64,000 nucleotides of DNA from an uncultured Eubacteriales bacterium. Its GTDB lineage: Bacteria > Bacillota > Clostridia > Christensenellales > Borkfalkiaceae. A model generated the notes under the pieces. It saw only the letters and a program-made list of their open reading frames with translations, was not told where the DNA came from and did no database searches. The stretch is from positions 1 to 64,000 of the forward strand of contig CATKEF010000034.1 of assembly GCA_949747905.1 (NCBI GenBank), in the 5' to 3' direction. Positions 31,516-39,703 of this stretch are shown here, piece by piece. The stretch's first letter is position 1; every line of letters starts with the position of its first letter. Made by a program: the position numbers and the translations under genes.

Positions 31516-34500
31516 TTATATTTCTATTGAACCCTCAAAAGAAAGTTTGACGGTACCGTCCACTTCGACGTTAGCGCCGCGCTCGTATTTCACAAACAGG
31601 TCCCCGCCTTTCAATTTTACCGTAACGTTCTCATCGTATCTGCAATCGCCTTTTCTTATTGCCGCTACAGCGGCAGCAGCCGCTGCAGTGCCGCAAGAGA
31701 ATGTTTCGCCGTTTCTCGGCACCCAAACGCGAGCCTTGATAGTAAGATTGTTTACAACTCTTACGCAAGCGACGTTAGCGTCGGGATAAATCTCCGCGAC
31801 CGCCTGCCCGAGCAATTCCAAGTCTATGCGATCTATATTATCCGTAAAGATTATGCAGTGTGAATTACCTACGTTTACACAATTTATGACGTAAGTTACC
31901 CCGTTAATGGTGACGCTTCCCGCATTAGCCGCAACTTTCGGCTTTCCGAGTTTTACAGAAACCGAACTCGCTTTGCCGTTAAAGGAATTGACCGTAAGCA
32001 ATTTAACTGTTCCGCAGCTTTCCACGGTAAGTTCGTCCGAATTGACAAATCCTTTATCGAACAGATATTTCGCCGCGCAGCGTATAGGATTCGCGGCAAG
32101 TCCGCCGTCGCTTCCGTCACTGTTGAATACCCTGACTTTTGCGTCCGCGACATCCGAATTTTCAAGAACGACTATTCCGTCAGCGCCGATAGCATAGTGT
32201 CTGTCCGAAAAATTGATTGCAAGCGATTCGGGACAGGTAATTTCCCCTTTCATATTATCGAAGAATATAAAATCGTTGCCGCAGCTATGCATTTTACAGA
32301 AATTAAGCCTGAGTTTTTCCGTTCGCAGATTATTTATATCCACAAGCTCGGTATTGAATTCATTATACCTTCCCGCAATTACGTCCGCAAGCGCATTGGT
32401 CGTATCGAGAGATGTCAGAACCGTTATACCTTTCAATATAGCATGATGATGCAAACTGATGTAGTTGGAGATTGATTCCATATCGGTTTTTCCGGTGTAT
32501 ACTATATAATCAACCTTGCCGTCGTCCATCAGTTTAATTATTTCTTCGTTGGAAGACAGTCTAGCAACATCTGTACACTCGAGCCCCAGACTTCTTATAA
32601 CTTTTGCAGTCCCCTTTGTCGCGTAAAGCGTAAGCCCGAGGTCGGCAAACTTTTTAACGATATTGACTATCTCGAACTTATCCTGGTCGTTTATTGTAAA
32701 GTATATCCCCGAAGGTCGCTTCTTGGTAGGATGCCGCATATTGAAACCCGCAGAAATAAGCCCCTTGAAAAGCGCCTCTTCAATAGTTTTTCCTATACCC
32801 AGAACTTCACCTGTCGATTTCATCTCGGGGCCGAGCTGAGAATTGACATCATTGAGTTTCTCGAAGGAAAACACGGGAACTTTAACCGCAACGTACGGAG
32901 AATTGGGATAAAGTCCCGTACCGTACCCGAGCGTCTTCAACTTCTCACCCGTCAAAATTCTCGTTGCAAGGTCTACCATGGGCACACCCGTTACTTTGGA
33001 AATATACGGAATGGTTCTCGATGCCCTCGGATTTACTTCTATAACATACAGTTCATTATGATAAATCAGGTATTGAATATTTATAAGTCCCTTTGTTTTA
33101 AGCGAAATTGCAAGTTTTTCCGATATATCGACAACTTTTTTGAGCATTGCATCGCTGAGATTGTAAGGCGGATAAACCGCTATCGAGTCTCCGCTATGCA
33201 CTCCTGCGCGCTCTATATGCTGCATAATCCCGGGTATCAACACATCTTCGCCGTCGGAAATAGCGTCCACTTCGAGCTCTGTTCCCATAAGATATTTATC
33301 GCATAATACAGGATTCTCTATCTTCTGAGCAAGTATTACATCCATATAACGCTCGATGTCGTTCTGAGTAAACGCAATAGTCATATTTTGTCCGCCTATG
33401 ACATACGACGGACGAAGCAATACGGGATAGCCGAGTTTTTCAGCAGCCGACACCGCTTCTTTTTTGCTCATTACAGTAAGTCCCTTGGGGCGCGCGATTC
33501 CGAATTTCTCCAAAAGTTCGTCAAACCGTTCTCTGTCCTCGGCAAGGTCAACACTGTCGGCAGGAGTTCCGAGAATTCTCACCCCGCATTTATCAAGATA
33601 TCCGCACAGTTTTATTGCCGTCTGACCTCCGAAAGTTATCACAACGCCATACGGCTTTTCGATATCAATTACGTTCTGAACATCTTCCGGAGTAAGCGCC
33701 TCGAAATACAACCTGTCCGCCGTATCAAAATCGGTGGAAACGGTCTCGGGGTTATTATTAATGATTATGACTTCATAGCCGAGCCGTTTAAGCGCCCACA
33801 CACAATGAACGGACGAATAGTCGAATTCTATACCCTGTCCTATTCGTATCGGTCCGGAACCTATAACTATAATTCTCTTCTTTTCGCTCTTTGCAACAAA
33901 AGGTTTTGCCTCGTCGTGTTTAAGCTCGTCGTATGTAGAATAAAAATACGGAGTCAGCGCGGAAAATTCGGCGCCGCAGGTATCAACCATTTTGAAAACA
34001 GCGTTTCTGTGCGTCGGCAATTTATTTCCCGAGAGCTTGACAAGTTCCGCATCGGGATACCCGAGTTTTTTGCCGCGGAGATACTGTTCCTCCGAAATTT
34101 TCTTTCCACCGATTTCTTTTTCGTAATCGGCAAGGTTTTTGAGTTTATTCAAAAACCATTCGTCTATTTTCGTAATCGAGTATATTTCGTCAATTGAAAA
34201 ACCGCGTTTAACCGCCTGATAAACAACAAAAAGTCTTTCGTCCGTTAACTCGTGCAGTTTTTCGTGAATTTGTTTATCGGACAATTCCGCCATTTTCGGC
34301 ATATTAAGCGTTCCGACAGAAATTTCCGCACCGCGGACGGCTTTCATAATAGCCATTTCGAAACTCGTGCCGATAGCCATAACTTCCCCGGTCGCCTTCA
34401 TTCTCGTACCGAGATTTCTTTTGGCATACAAAAATTTATCGAACGGCCACTTTGGCAGTTTTACTACAACGTAATCGAGCGTCGGTTCGAAACATGAATA

Positions 34501-35526
34501 AGTTTTTCCCGTTACGTCGTTTTTGATTTCATCCAAGGTATATCCGAGCGCTATTTTTGTCGCCACCTTTGCAATCGGGTACCCCGTCGCTTTTGAAGCA
34601 AGCGCCGATGAACGGGAAACTCTGGGATTGACCTCAATGACCGAGTATTCGAACGAATCGGGATTGAGAGCAAACTGACAGTTACAGCCGCCCTCGATTT
34701 TCAATTCGCTTATTATTTGCAAAGACGCCGTTCTGAGCATCTGATATTCTTTGTCCGAAAGGGTTACGGCAGGAGCAATTACTATAGAATCACCCGTATG
34801 AATTCCGACAGGGTCGAAATTTTCCATTGAACATACTGTAAGAACATTACCGGCACCGTCGCGAAGAACCTCAAACTCGATTTCTTTCCAACCGCCTATA
34901 TACTTTTCGATAAGCACCTGAGTTATCGGCGACAACATAAGACCGTTATGCGAAATCAGGCGCAGCTCTTCTTCGTTTTCCGCAACGCCGCCGCCAGCGC
35001 CGCCAAGCGTATATGCCGGACGTACAATAACAGGATAACCTATTTTCCCGGCTATTGAAACGCATTCTTCAACCGTATAAGCAATATCCGACGGAACGAC
35101 GGGCTGATTGATTTTTTGCATCGTCTCTTTGAACAATTCCCTGTCCTCCGCCCTGTCGATGGAATCGAGGTTGACGCCTATAAGTTTTACGCCGTATTCA
35201 TCAAGAAATCCCGATTTTGCCAAACAGCAACCGAGAGTAAGTCCCGTCTGCCCTCCGAGCGAAGCAAGGAGACTGTCGGGGCGCTCTTTAATTATAATTC
35301 TTTTTAATGTATCCTCGGTAAGAGGTTCAAGATATATTTCGTCGGCAAGCGCCTTATCGGTCATTATAGTTGCAGGATTTGAATTACAAAGAACAACGTT
35401 AATTCCGGCATCTTTAAGCACGCGACACGCCTGCGCTCCGGCATAGTCGAATTCCGCTGCCTGTCCGATAATTATGGGTCCGGAACCTATAACGAGTACC
35501 TTTTTTATATCTTCTCTCTTAGGCAT
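31516..35526 (-). CDS. carB: Carbamoyl-phosphate synthase large subunit fused to a C-terminal DapF (diaminopimelate epimerase)-like domain
   Basis: Residues 1 to ~1070 are CarB (VLVIGSGPIIIGQAAEFDYAGAQA ... IIVIGSGPIRIGQGIEFDYSSVHC). The last ~265 aa are DapF-like: FCKMHSCGNDFIFFDN, YAIGADGIVVLE, RVFNSDGSDGGLAANPIRCAAKYLF, PRNGETFSCGTAAAAAAVAA. Confidence 0.95.
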   Translation of the reverse strand: MPKREDIKKVLVIGSGPIIIGQAAEFDYAGAQACRVLKDAGINVVLCNSNPATIMTDKALADEIYLEPLTEDTLKRIIIKERPDSLLASLGGQTGLTLGCCLAKSGFLDEYGVKLIGVNLDSIDRAEDRELFKETMQKINQPVVPSDIAYTVEECVSIAGKIGYPVIVRPAYTLGGAGGGVAENEEELRLISHNGLMLSPITQVLIEKYIGGWKEIEFEVLRDGAGNVLTVCSMENFDPVGIHTGDSIVIAPAVTLSDKEYQMLRTASLQIISELKIEGGCNCQFALNPDSFEYSVIEVNPRVSRSSALASKATGYPIAKVATKIALGYTLDEIKNDVTGKTYSCFEPTLDYVVVKLPKWPFDKFLYAKRNLGTRMKATGEVMAIGTSFEMAIMKAVRGAEISVGTLNMPKMAELSDKQIHEKLHELTDERLFVVYQAVKRGFSIDEIYSITKIDEWFLNKLKNLADYEKEIGGKKISEEQYLRGKKLGYPDAELVKLSGNKLPTHRNAVFKMVDTCGAEFSALTPYFYSTYDELKHDEAKPFVAKSEKKRIIVIGSGPIRIGQGIEFDYSSVHCVWALKRLGYEVIIINNNPETVSTDFDTADRLYFEALTPEDVQNVIDIEKPYGVVITFGGQTAIKLCGYLDKCGVRILGTPADSVDLAEDRERFDELLEKFGIARPKGLTVMSKKEAVSAAEKLGYPVLLRPSYVIGGQNMTIAFTQNDIERYMDVILAQKIENPVLCDKYLMGTELEVDAISDGEDVLIPGIMQHIERAGVHSGDSIAVYPPYNLSDAMLKKVVDISEKLAISLKTKGLINIQYLIYHNELYVIEVNPRASRTIPYISKVTGVPMVDLATRILTGEKLKTLGYGTGLYPNSPYVAVKVPVFSFEKLNDVNSQLGPEMKSTGEVLGIGKTIEEALFKGLISAGFNMRHPTKKRPSGIYFTINDQDKFEIVNIVKKFADLGLTLYATKGTAKVIRSLGLECTDVARLSSNEEIIKLMDDGKVDYIVYTGKTDMESISNYISLHHHAILKGITVLTSLDTTNALADVIAGRYNEFNTELVDINNLRTEKLRLNFCKMHSCGNDFIFFDNMKGEITCPESLAINFSDRHYAIGADGIVVLENSDVADAKVRVFNSDGSDGGLAANPIRCAAKYLFDKGFVNSDELTVESCGTVKLLTVNSFNGKASSVSVKLGKPKVAANAGSVTINGVTYVINCVNVGNSHCIIFTDNIDRIDLELLGQAVAEIYPDANVACVRVVNNLTIKARVWVPRNGETFSCGTAAAAAAVAAIRKGDCRYDENVTVKLKGGDLFVKYERGANVEVDGTVKLSFEGSIEI

Positions 35527-36592
35527 TGAACTTTCCCCCTTTGATTATTCCGATAAATCTGTCGAACAGGAACGAAGTATCCTGCGGTCCGCCGCACGCT
35601 TCGGGATGAAACTGAACGGTAAAAGTGTTAAGAAACGGATAGTCGAACCCTTCACACGTACCGTCATTGGCATTTATATAACTCAGCGAACCAAACTTAA
35701 CGCTCGAAGACACAACTTCGTATCCGTGATTCTGGCTTGAAATATATACTCTGCCGGAATTCAGATTTTTAACGGGCTGATTTGCGCCTCTATGTCCGTA
35801 TTTCATTTTCTTCGTAATTCCGTTCATAGCCAGAGCGAAAAGCTGATGCCCGAGACATATTCCGAAAGTCGGATATTTACCCGCCAACTTCTTTATATTT
35901 TCGATTATTTCAACGTTTTCGGCAGGGTCGCCGGGACCGTTTGTAAGCATCAGTCCGTCGGGATTTAAAGAAGAAATCTGTTCGGCGGTATAAAATGCAG
36001 GAACTTTGATGCAATAACAACCGCGTTTTACAAGTTCGCGAACGATGTTGTCTTTTGCGCCGAAATCCCATACAACGACTTTCAGTCCGTTTTCATCGCC
36101 GTAAAATTCAGGCTCGGAACACGTTACGCTGCGTACAGCGTTCTTCACCGAATAGCCGTTCAATTCATCCGTGTTTTTTATGGGCTTATCCGTTATACCG
36201 GCATTCATAACGCCCGCTTCACGCACGATTTTCGTCAGTTCACGAGTATCTATTCCGTAAAGCCCCACTATCCCGTTATCTTTGAGGTAACCGTCCAATG
36301 TTCCCCCGCACCTGAAATTGGAGGGTGCGTCGCATTTTTCTCTGACAATATAAGCCGAAACCCAAGGCTTTTTACTCTCTTCGTCGGCAGCAATCATGCC
36401 GTAATTACCGATTAAAGGAAAAGTCTGTGTGACTATCTGTCCGAAATAACTGGGGTCCGTCAGTGTCTCGATGTATCCCGTCATGCCCGTAGTAAACACC
36501 AACTCGCCCGAAATTTCGCCCTCGGCACCGAAACGGTAGCCTTCAAACTGTTTACCGTTCTGCAAAGTTAAATAAGCTCTGCCGTCTTTCAT
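35519..36592 (-). CDS. carA: Carbamoyl-phosphate synthase small subunit
   Basis: TGMTGYIETLTDPSYFGQIV, FGICLGHQLFALA, FHPEACGGPQDTSFLFD. Confidence 0.96.
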   Translation of the reverse strand: MKDGRAYLTLQNGKQFEGYRFGAEGEISGELVFTTGMTGYIETLTDPSYFGQIVTQTFPLIGNYGMIAADEESKKPWVSAYIVREKCDAPSNFRCGGTLDGYLKDNGIVGLYGIDTRELTKIVREAGVMNAGITDKPIKNTDELNGYSVKNAVRSVTCSEPEFYGDENGLKVVVWDFGAKDNIVRELVKRGCYCIKVPAFYTAEQISSLNPDGLMLTNGPGDPAENVEIIENIKKLAGKYPTFGICLGHQLFALAMNGITKKMKYGHRGANQPVKNLNSGRVYISSQNHGYEVVSSSVKFGSLSYINANDGTCEGFDYPFLNTFTVQFHPEACGGPQDTSFLFDRFIGIIKGGKFNA

Positions 36593-36630
36593 TGTTTATC
36601 CGTCCTTAAAATAATCTGAAATAAAAGAAA

Positions 36631-36655
36631 GACTGATTTAAAAAATAAATCAGTC
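36631..36655 (-). terminator. Intrinsic terminator in the carA leader (putative attenuator)
   Basis: On the minus strand GACTGATTTA TTTTT TAAATCAGTC followed by TTTCTTTTATTT, 39 nt before the carA start codon. Confidence 0.75.
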
Positions 36656-36763
36656 AACAAAAGATAATTTTTGAAAAATATCAGTTTCGGCGGTAGAAAA
36701 CAAGCCGCCGTGAAGAAGAAAAAATTCACTTTCTATATAACCTGATAAATTAATCATTTGCAT
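36650..36763 (-). CDS. Putative carA leader peptide (37 aa, MQMINLSGYIESEFFLLHGGLFSTAETDIFQKLSFVD)
   Basis: ATG at 36763 preceded by GAGGAAGGGACTTATTCAA (SD-like); stop TGA lies inside the 5' arm of the terminator hairpin. Too short for the ORF track. Confidence 0.55.
   Translation of the reverse strand: MQMINLSGYIESEFFLLHGGLFSTAETDIFQKLSFVD
36688..36710 (-). promoter_or_regulatory. Putative pause hairpin in the carA leader
   Basis: CGGCGG / CCGCCG with an 11-nt loop, followed on the minus strand by U-rich sequence. Confidence 0.45.
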
Positions 36764-36793
36764 TTGAATAAGTCCCTTCCTCAAACCTTATAG

Positions 36794-36822
36794 ATTATAT
36801 AATAACCTTTCAGACAAGTCAA
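36794..36822 (-). promoter_or_regulatory. Sigma-A-type promoter for carA
   Basis: Minus strand TTGACT - 17 nt - TATAAT, about 30 nt upstream of the leader ATG. Confidence 0.8.
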
Positions 36823-36839
36823 GCAAATAAACCTATAAT

Positions 36840-37478
36840 TCAATAAAGCGTCATAAGAAAATCGTAATTTGAAAGCTCTTTTTTTAAAATTTTCCAATTC
36901 GGCAGAAAAGCAGATACCGTCTCCCGGAACGCCGCCGAATGATTAAAATGCTTTAAGTGACATAACTCGTGAATAATTATGTAATCCTGCAAATGTTCGG
37001 GAATCATGCTTAATCTGAAATCAAACGCAATATTGCCTTTGATATCGCAGCAACCCCAACGCCTTCTGAAACTCTTTACGGAAACGCCGACCGGTTTTAA
37101 ACCCGTAAAATTCGACAGTCTATCTACTTTTGCTTTAATTTCATCCGAAAAATATGCCTTAAATAATCCGGGAATATCCGATAAGCGTTTTACAAGTACA
37201 TAGTCTTCTGTTACTTTGATTTTATCCGAATATTTTAAAGGAACTTTTTTGCCGCATATAAAAATGAATTCATATTCCATAATGTCAGCATTTTTACAAA
37301 GATTTTCGGAATTCTTTTTAAAATGTTTTTCAATCCAATCTTGTTTGTAATTCAAAAATTTCTGTATCTGAAATGCAGTAGCCGTGCGTGGGCAACGGAC
37401 GCGGATAACATTATTAGCCGCAACGCCGACAGAAAAAGTTTCACGATTGGTGCGCACGACTTCGTAATCAAATTCCAT
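36840..37478 (-). CDS. M48-type metallopeptidase (YgjP/DUF45-like)
   Basis: IIIHELCHLKHFNHSAAF (HExxH-like zinc motif) and RRWGCCDIKGNIAFDFRL. Confidence 0.9.
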   Translation of the reverse strand: MEFDYEVVRTNRETFSVGVAANNVIRVRCPRTATAFQIQKFLNYKQDWIEKHFKKNSENLCKNADIMEYEFIFICGKKVPLKYSDKIKVTEDYVLVKRLSDIPGLFKAYFSDEIKAKVDRLSNFTGLKPVGVSVKSFRRRWGCCDIKGNIAFDFRLSMIPEHLQDYIIIHELCHLKHFNHSAAFRETVSAFLPNWKILKKELSNYDFLMTLY

Positions 37479-38305: not shown

Positions 38306-38334
38306 TTGACATAATTTGGATAAAGTGATATAAT
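38306..38334 (+). promoter_or_regulatory. Consensus sigma-A promoter for the PadR gene
   Basis: TTGACA - 17 nt - TATAAT, exact consensus hexamers. Confidence 0.88.
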
Positions 38335-38362: not shown

Positions 38363-39703
38363 TTGGACGAAGAAAACAGAAACGAAGAACAAAAAGAAGA
38401 GTCTGCAAACGGAATAAGCGCCGACCTTATCCGCGGTCATATTAACACTATAATCCTGCGCACATTATATGAACGCGATAAATACGGCTACGAAATAATA
38501 GAGGAAATTAACGAGAAGAGCCACGGACAGTATACGCTTAAACAACCGACACTTTACAGCGCCTTGAAGCGCCTTGAAAGTCAAGGTTACATCAACGCTT
38601 ACTGGAAGACGGACGAAGTATCTCAAGGCGGAAGAAGAAAATATTACACTCTGACCGAAAGCGGCAAAGAAATTACCGAAAAAAATCAGGCAGAATGGGA
38701 ATATTCGAGAACTGTAATCGACAATCTTATTTCCGATAAGAACTTCGATTTCACCCAACCCCCTCCCACACCCGTTGATTTCAAAATACTGAAAAGCACG
38801 ACGTCGCGCGTTCCCATAATAAAACACGAGGTCAGCGAAACTTCAGAAAATCAATTACAGTCGTCCGAAGAAAAAAAGGATGCGATTACGGATATTACGA
38901 CGGAGACCAAACAAAACCCCGAAGAAAAATCAGAAAACAATATAATTGCTCAACCCGAAACCTCTTCTGCGGACAGAGAACGGATACACAATAATTATCT
39001 TAAACTGATTTCCGAGCCCGTAACAAATACATCGGAACCCGCGAAAACAGCATATTCGGACAACCTTGATACCGATAAACTTATTTATAATAATAAGCCC
39101 GAACCCGAACGTGACTATAAAAACCTTGTCAACAGTTTATTCGACAGAACCATAGCACAACATACCGCAACAGTCCGAGAAGAAAAACGAGAAATTCGGT
39201 CACAGGAAAGAATATCGGTCAGATATGAAGAAGCCGCAGAAAAAGCCAGACAGGACGGACTCACGGTAAACACAGCGGATGCCCCCGCGCAGTCACGCAA
39301 CAAGAAATATAACCGCGGCAACGCAATGTTCAAATCGTCATTGATTATTGCAGTAATAATGCTTCTGGAATTCGTTATTGCTCTTGTTTTCCGCAACGAG
39401 CTCGGAATAGGTATTGCTTACCCGATAGTAATTCTTGCGCTTGGATGCGCCCAGGCTATGATTTTCGGAGTTTTATGTTTTACAGATTTAGGTAAATCGA
39501 TACGTAAACCAGCCACTTTAAATTATATATGGTCTGCAATAATTATTACCATAATATTAATTCTTATAATTCTTGTTACGTCTTTCCTGCTCGGAATCAA
39601 TTTCCTTGATGCAGGCGATGTTTTTGCAAAGTTTGTATTTCCCTCTCTTATATCTCTGAACATCCCGCTTTTCGCAGTTCTGTTCGCAATCTTCAGCAAG
39701 TAA
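38363..39703 (+). CDS. PadR-family regulator with long linker and C-terminal transmembrane domain
   Basis: IILRTLYERDKYGYEIIEEINEKSHGQYTLKQPTLYSALKRLESQGYI (PadR wHTH); ~185-residue low-complexity linker; C-terminal ~125 aa with about four TM segments. TTG start preceded by GGAGGAAAT. Confidence 0.9.
   Translation: MDEENRNEEQKEESANGISADLIRGHINTIILRTLYERDKYGYEIIEEINEKSHGQYTLKQPTLYSALKRLESQGYINAYWKTDEVSQGGRRKYYTLTESGKEITEKNQAEWEYSRTVIDNLISDKNFDFTQPPPTPVDFKILKSTTSRVPIIKHEVSETSENQLQSSEEKKDAITDITTETKQNPEEKSENNIIAQPETSSADRERIHNNYLKLISEPVTNTSEPAKTAYSDNLDTDKLIYNNKPEPERDYKNLVNSLFDRTIAQHTATVREEKREIRSQERISVRYEEAAEKARQDGLTVNTADAPAQSRNKKYNRGNAMFKSSLIIAVIMLLEFVIALVFRNELGIGIAYPIVILALGCAQAMIFGVLCFTDLGKSIRKPATLNYIWSAIIITIILILIILVTSFLLGINFLDAGDVFAKFVFPSLISLNIPLFAVLFAIFSK

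Follow-up and report, generated by a model that had tools for sequence, protein, structure and literature searches.

A predicted transcription attenuator in the carA leader of uncultured Clostridia with an origin in a lost arginine operon

The carA locus and its leader region

The window analysed here, 64 000 nt of contig CATKEF010000034.1 from the metagenome assembly of an uncultured Eubacteriales bacterium, contains carA and carB on the minus strand, downstream of a gene encoding a YgjP-like metallopeptidase. The region comprises the following features, listed in the direction of transcription.

36840..37478 (-): YgjP-like metallopeptidase, upstream neighbour (PF01863 and synteny)
36794..36822 (-): promoter TTGACT-17-TATAAT (11 of 12 consensus letters)
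36774..36782 (-): Shine-Dalgarno-like sequence GAGGAAGGG of the leader ORF (from the sequence)
36650..36763 (-): leader ORF of 37 codons, MQMINLSGYIESEFFLLHGGLFSTAETDIFQKLSFVD followed by a stop (from the sequence, with the same phasing in 19 of 19 relatives)
~36688..36710 (-): GC-rich hairpin within the leader ORF (-10.4 kcal/mol, z -2.8 against dinucleotide shuffles)
36656..36680 (-): U-rich tract adjoining the terminator on its upstream side (base composition)
36622..36655 (-): predicted intrinsic terminator (attenuator), a 10-bp stem at 36655-36631 and an interrupted U tract, TTTCTTTTA
35519..36592 (-): carA, carbamoyl-phosphate synthase small subunit, 357 aa (Pfam PF00988 and PF00117)
31516..35526 (-): carB fused to a DapF domain, 1336 aa (Pfam PF02786, PF02787, PF02142 and PF01678)

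The initial annotation had placed a promoter, a Shine-Dalgarno-like sequence, a 37-codon ORF, a GC-rich hairpin and a terminator between positions 36593 and 36822. A check of the sequence located all of these, and every other part described for the leader, at the coordinates given above on the minus strand. The leader stop had been assigned to the 5' arm of the terminator, and the UGA at 36652-36650 (-) does lie inside this arm. The terminator stem (36655-36631) has a predicted stability of -12.1 kcal/mol (z -8.4), which was equalled by none of 200 dinucleotide shuffles, and its tail in the window reads UUUCUUUU. A PyrR site or a riboswitch might have explained the terminator, but an Rfam search of the leader region returned no family at threshold. 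In a 3-kb scan, promoter-like and terminator-like sites as a class showed no excess over shuffles; since such sites alone are no commoner than in shuffles, it is on conservation that the argument against chance depends.

Two further observations concern the surroundings of the leader. The C-terminal diaminopimelate epimerase (DapF) fusion of carB was also detected by Pfam in a more distant genus (L216, 1351 aa). On the plus strand, a perfect sigma-70-type promoter (TTGACA-17-TATAAT at 38306-38334, 12 of 12 matches, with TG ahead of the -10 box) precedes a large ORF (38363-39703) with a PadR-like N-terminus, as judged by eye, and a membrane C-terminus.

Distribution and conservation of the terminator

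Relatives were searched with the pattern GACTGATTTAT-N(0-8)-AAATCAGTC (150 genomes). The terminator, GACTGATTTA-loop-TAAATCAGTC-TTTNTTTT, was present in 52 of about 90 Candidatus Coproplasma-like (Clostridia) genomes, with one copy each, the copy of one genome being divided between two contig ends. It was found in none of 60 genomes from other genera of the order, and a reversed control of the pattern never matched among the 150 relatives. A scan of contigs from GTDB species identified 68 stretches, 64 of which were from uncultured Clostridia, including several named Candidatus Coproplasma. In these 64 contigs the element is located 56-119 nt upstream of carA (hereafter class A) or between argB and argD (class B); three of them (L195, L208 and L216) belong to the more distant genus, with carA 53-56% identical. 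Four matches, in Kaistella, Chryseobacterium, Aureibaculum and a Bacillales MAG (L168, L207, L213, L220), were not accompanied by a car or arg gene and were taken as chance. A search of a literature library turned up no description of this element.

Across 68 distinct copies, the 3' arm contains two variant letters in total. The 5' arm shows G-U exchanges at two positions, and one pair is altered on both sides in a compensatory manner. The spacing of the 9-nt arms ranges from 2 to 8 nt and the pairing of the stem is kept as the loop changes in length, as would fit a hairpin in RNA rather than an operator in DNA. An ArgR operator was rejected on the same grounds, as it requires a palindrome of fixed spacing; most genomes of either class do encode ArgR. 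The 3' arm (36640-36631 in the window) is nearly invariant across a genus whose carA has diverged to about 72-84% identity. This degree of conservation exceeds what pairing calls for, and the ribosome-coupling model discussed below offers no explanation for it.

Position 4 of the tail TTTNTTTT is occupied by a letter other than T in 62 of the 68 copies, and each of the five T positions of TTNTTT holds a T in 65-68 of them. In the window, the tail (36630-36622) fits the NusG pause motif TTNTTT, which we treat as a lead only. The same motif is present upstream of the terminator in 12 of 19 leaders, but as it is missing from the leader of the window it was dropped as an argument.

Gene context and descent from an arginine operon

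Class B loci have the order thioesterase, YgjP-like gene, [promoter], argG-argC-argJ-argB-[T]-argD-argF-carA-carB, with T denoting the terminator. Class A loci, including the window, consist of the thioesterase, the YgjP-like gene, promoter, short leader, terminator, carA and carB, with argGCJB and argDF gone, and by synteny the YgjP-like gene marks one common site in both classes. In all 37 class B loci, argB stops between 2 nt inside the stem and 4 nt before it. No argB was found in the class A genomes searched, and argG was detected in none of 18 class A genomes against all six class B genomes; the genome of the window has neither gene. pyrB, on the other hand, was retained above the cut-off in 17 of the 18 class A genomes.

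All class A promoters conform to TTGAC..TATAWT. The argG promoters of class B (TTGACTT..TATATAAT/TGTATAAT) are situated downstream of the same YgjP-like gene, and the window promoter agrees in both position and sequence with that of argG in relatives whose operon is intact. In the more distant genus, argJ has persisted on the upstream side of the block formed by promoter, leader, terminator and carA.

A deep branch (G055, L241) retains argB-[T], and two class A leaders, those of G049 (E 5.3e-5) and G089 (E 1.3e-3), can still be matched to the argB C-terminus, compared with 0.027 for the best of 1000 shuffled leaders. These two observations mark class B as ancestral and class A as the scar left by deletion of six arg genes. 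Only 2 of 20 class A leaders still match argB. By its position, the leader ORF of the window descends from the argB 3' end. The element as a whole is a remnant of the arginine operon, with class A leaders re-purposed from an argB-coupled arrangement.

In the carA tree, class A requires about seven changes. Placing all class A rows in a single clade was rejected (AU test on carA, p 0.0008), which argues for repeated loss of the arg genes; monophyly of class A without G081 and the G072/G073/G075 group was not rejected (p 0.19). We take this to mean at least two or three losses among the same-genus genomes plus a further one in the more distant genus, a number that is rough because carA alone supports many forks weakly.

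No carA match was obtained in the same-genus genomes G009, G034, G038, G048 and G052, some of which are >90% complete, and carbamoyl-phosphate synthesis may have been lost there in addition to the arginine genes. In G024 and G045 (L235, L064), GC-rich repeats fill intergenic regions upstream of carA or argD, and in G024 the terminator before argD was not seen within the 174 nt present on the contig.

The leader reading frame and its U-rich end

In each of 19 tested class A leaders, reading from the first ATG downstream of the -10 box gives a frame 29-61 codons long whose stop is the UGA of the terminator arm, and inclusion of G008, read by eye, brings this to 20 of 20. The stop lies at the edge of or inside the 5' arm, at GAC-UGA in 18 of the 19 leaders and at the UGA of UUGAC in one. 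Overlap of leader stop and terminator in relatives, which the initial annotation had named as a test of its proposal, is therefore conserved. Shuffled leaders give the same frame with a probability of 0.05-0.18 each; the product of the 19 probabilities is about 1e-19, a figure that counts kin as independent. Two of the 19 leaders come from the other genus (L195, L208). As the leader peptides are otherwise dissimilar, it is the frame and the stop position that have been kept, not the peptide.

Hairpins resembling the GC-rich one of the window (CGGCGG..CCGCCG) occur in several class A leaders, not in all; the hairpin at 36688..36710 is a candidate pause hairpin. A conserved antiterminator pairing was considered and rejected: the leader of the window contains a partial ACUGAU repeat that, by eye, is not conserved.

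The last 25 nt before the stem have a U content of 0.52 in class A, compared with 0.32 in the rest of the same leaders and 0.29 in class B (paired Wilcoxon p 3.8e-6 against the rest of the leader and Mann-Whitney p 1.4e-9 against class B, kin being counted as independent in both). A content does not rise in these 25 nt (0.26). The increase in U affects all three codon positions (0.44/0.46/0.63 against 0.24/0.33/0.36), so that the nucleotide and not the amino acid seems to be selected. The tract is less pronounced in G073/G075, and in the other genus it is shifted upstream. U-richness before the terminator is confined to class A, that is, to loci from which the arg genes are gone.

The lack of a PyrR consensus in the leader, noted in the initial annotation, extends to the genus. 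PyrR protein above the NCBIfam cut-off was found in none of 55 same-genus genomes, whereas 21 of 36 genomes from other genera had it, and the PyrR RNA site RF00515 was likewise found in 0 of 55 against 12 of 36. The U tract of class A, the absence of both PyrR protein and RNA site, the retention of pyrB and the fact that carAB is left to serve pyrimidines together make UTP the likeliest signal, and on balance we think it the main one.

A second locus has comparable elements. Upstream of pyrB, examined in the window's own genome (L253, C59) and 21 relatives, a terminator GCGG..CCGC-TTTTTTT is present in about 17 of 22 cases. It is accompanied by a short ORF (MVFYF in the window's own genome), which often ends 2-11 nt before or inside the stem, and the pyrB leader is a candidate for a second attenuator of the same kind.

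Proposed mechanism and alternative explanations

The sequence evidence presents the carA leader as a genuine, conserved and hitherto unannotated predicted attenuator, with an unusually clear origin in a lost operon. We consider it quite likely that attenuation at this leader is coupled to the ribosome. The fuller proposal, that a cis-acting and UTP-sensitive transcription attenuator controls carAB through translation of the leader ORF, we regard as reasonably probable. RNA polymerase would start at the old arg-operon promoter, copy the leader ORF, including its U-rich end, and meet a weak terminator. A leading ribosome close behind would halt at the UGA at or in the 5' arm and block the hairpin, so that carAB would be transcribed; with the polymerase far ahead of the ribosome, the hairpin would form and transcription would end. 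At low UTP, the polymerase would be slowed in the U-rich tract and read-through favoured, amounting to pyrimidine feedback without PyrR. Such a switch would probably let the cell make more carA mRNA when UTP is scarce. We infer both termination at this site and its prevention by leader translation. In Escherichia coli, termination fell from about 90% to <10% when a stop codon was shifted to a position 5 bp ahead of a terminator (PMC4824070), pyrL works through slow transcription at low UTP (PMC10135430), and in Bacillus subtilis vmlR provides a case of leader-ORF attenuation with polymerase pausing (PMC9226507).

The weak point of ribosome coupling is the lineage in which it is proposed. Bacillota are classed at phylum level as runaway, their transcription being thought to outrun translation, and terminators close to stop codons are a pattern tied to such transcription (PMC13323073). 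In the genome of the window, 12 of 34 predicted operon-end terminators lie <=6 nt from a stop codon. Given these frequent stop-near terminators and the classification of the phylum, ribosome blocking may be weak in this lineage, and the closeness of stop and stem is in itself not special. The conserved frame supports translation of the leader, while the stop-to-stem distances of the genome are partly runaway-like. Those terminators may work because ribosomes usually trail far behind, which would make termination the default at the leader too and a slowed polymerase the only one that a ribosome reaches; otherwise coupling is too weak for the model to hold.

The common occurrence of stop-near terminators in this genome, together with the nature of class A as a deletion scar, would also suit an unregulated partial terminator or mRNA 3'-end stabiliser of the old operon, the class A leaders being recent debris. 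This reading is rather improbable, as the element is the only thing retained between promoter and carA through repeated deletions, every frame has been kept although the leaders have diverged (2 of 20 match argB), and the U enrichment is new in class A. The extreme conservation of the 3' arm and tail over 68 distinct copies, beyond the need for pairing, points in another direction, as does the fact that one element serves arg-car and car operons alike. Both would suit a hairpin that serves as the site of an RNA-binding or other trans-acting regulator, with this factor, not the ribosome, switching the terminator. We nevertheless hold such a regulator to be unlikely: it predicts neither that 20 of 20 frames run into the arm nor that argB stops where the stem begins, no PyrR and no known RNA family was found, and the loop varies in length and sequence.

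Conservation of TTNTTT in the tail TTTNTTTT, including the interruption seen in 62 of the 68 copies, raises a further reading, in which hairpin and motif are mainly a NusG-dependent pause, or a NusG-stimulated terminator, that gives the ribosome time to close the gap, as happens in leaders of B. subtilis. NusG-dependent pausing at TTNTTT is known, and NusG stimulates weak terminators with interruptions in the U tract (PMC9226507, PMC8060035, PMC12288461). The motif is, however, short, common and insufficient for pausing (PMC12288461), and the base of the stem is G-C, unlike that of typical NusG-dependent terminators; we find this reading decidedly improbable as the main explanation, and such pausing could belong to the ribosome-coupled model rather than oppose it. 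Finally, an ancestral operon for arginine and the existence of a translated leader bring to mind an amino-acid-sensing leader peptide of the trp/his kind, responding for example to arginine. This is very improbable, since the leader of the window has no arginine codon and class A shows no enrichment (9 of 171 end codons), the genome has neither argB nor argG, and the U enrichment extends to third codon positions.

Returning to ribosome-coupled attenuation, its history may be put as follows. In one PyrR-less lineage of gut Clostridia, within the Bacillota, the arg genes would have been lost at least twice, with the promoter and the argB-coupled attenuator kept by selection. argB would have become a leader ORF constrained in frame and stop position alone, its end tuned to be U-rich, and an attenuator of an arginine operon would have turned into a pyrimidine sensor. 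For this scenario as a whole we see the case for and against as evenly balanced. If true, the origin of a leader-peptide attenuator could be traced stepwise: class B has the full gene, G049 and G089 a recognisable remnant, and the window a leader that looks unrelated. It would also mean that ribosome coupling provides UTP feedback in a phylum, the Bacillota, that is classed as runaway and usually expected to use PyrR, and the genomes offer a natural set of variants for testing how little coupling such a switch needs.

Comparison with known systems

PyrR-controlled pyr operons of Bacillota resemble the carA leader in that pyrimidine genes are controlled by a terminator, but neither PyrR above the cut-off nor RF00515 was found in the 55 same-genus genomes. 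B. subtilis vmlR likewise combines a leader ORF, transcription attenuation and TTNTTT pausing in Bacillota (PMC9226507). It differs in responding to antibiotics by way of an anti-antiterminator, and no such alternative structure was found at the carA leader.

E. coli pyrBI, with pyrL as its leader, shares with the carA leader a short U-rich leader ORF, an intrinsic terminator and a pyrimidine gene downstream. pyrL reads on through the attenuator, whereas the carA leader ORF has its stop codon within the terminator's 5' arm. In addition, the gene (carA) and the phylum are different, the sequences are unrelated and the carA leader descends from argB. In pyrBI, a ribosome close behind the polymerase prevents termination at low UTP (PMC10135430, PMC5021804). 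Class A leaders have the corresponding parts, namely a leader ORF, a predicted terminator within reach of the leader ribosome and a U-rich stretch upstream of it.

In E. coli rph-pyrE, the ribosome is supplied by an upstream structural gene whose translation ends just before the attenuator. This is also the arrangement of class B argB-[T]-argD, where the upstream gene stops at the attenuator in 37 of 37 loci; here, however, the site is internal to an operon for arginine. All that class A has left of the structural gene is a leader ORF, and the comparison of upstream-gene translation does not apply since the gene is gone. The initial annotation had read the leader as following pyrBI-type logic. 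Its attenuator layout is conserved, but as translation in the arginine operon reaches this terminator from the end of argB, the layout is nearer to rph-pyrE than to pyrBI, and the leader is better described as a remnant of that operon.
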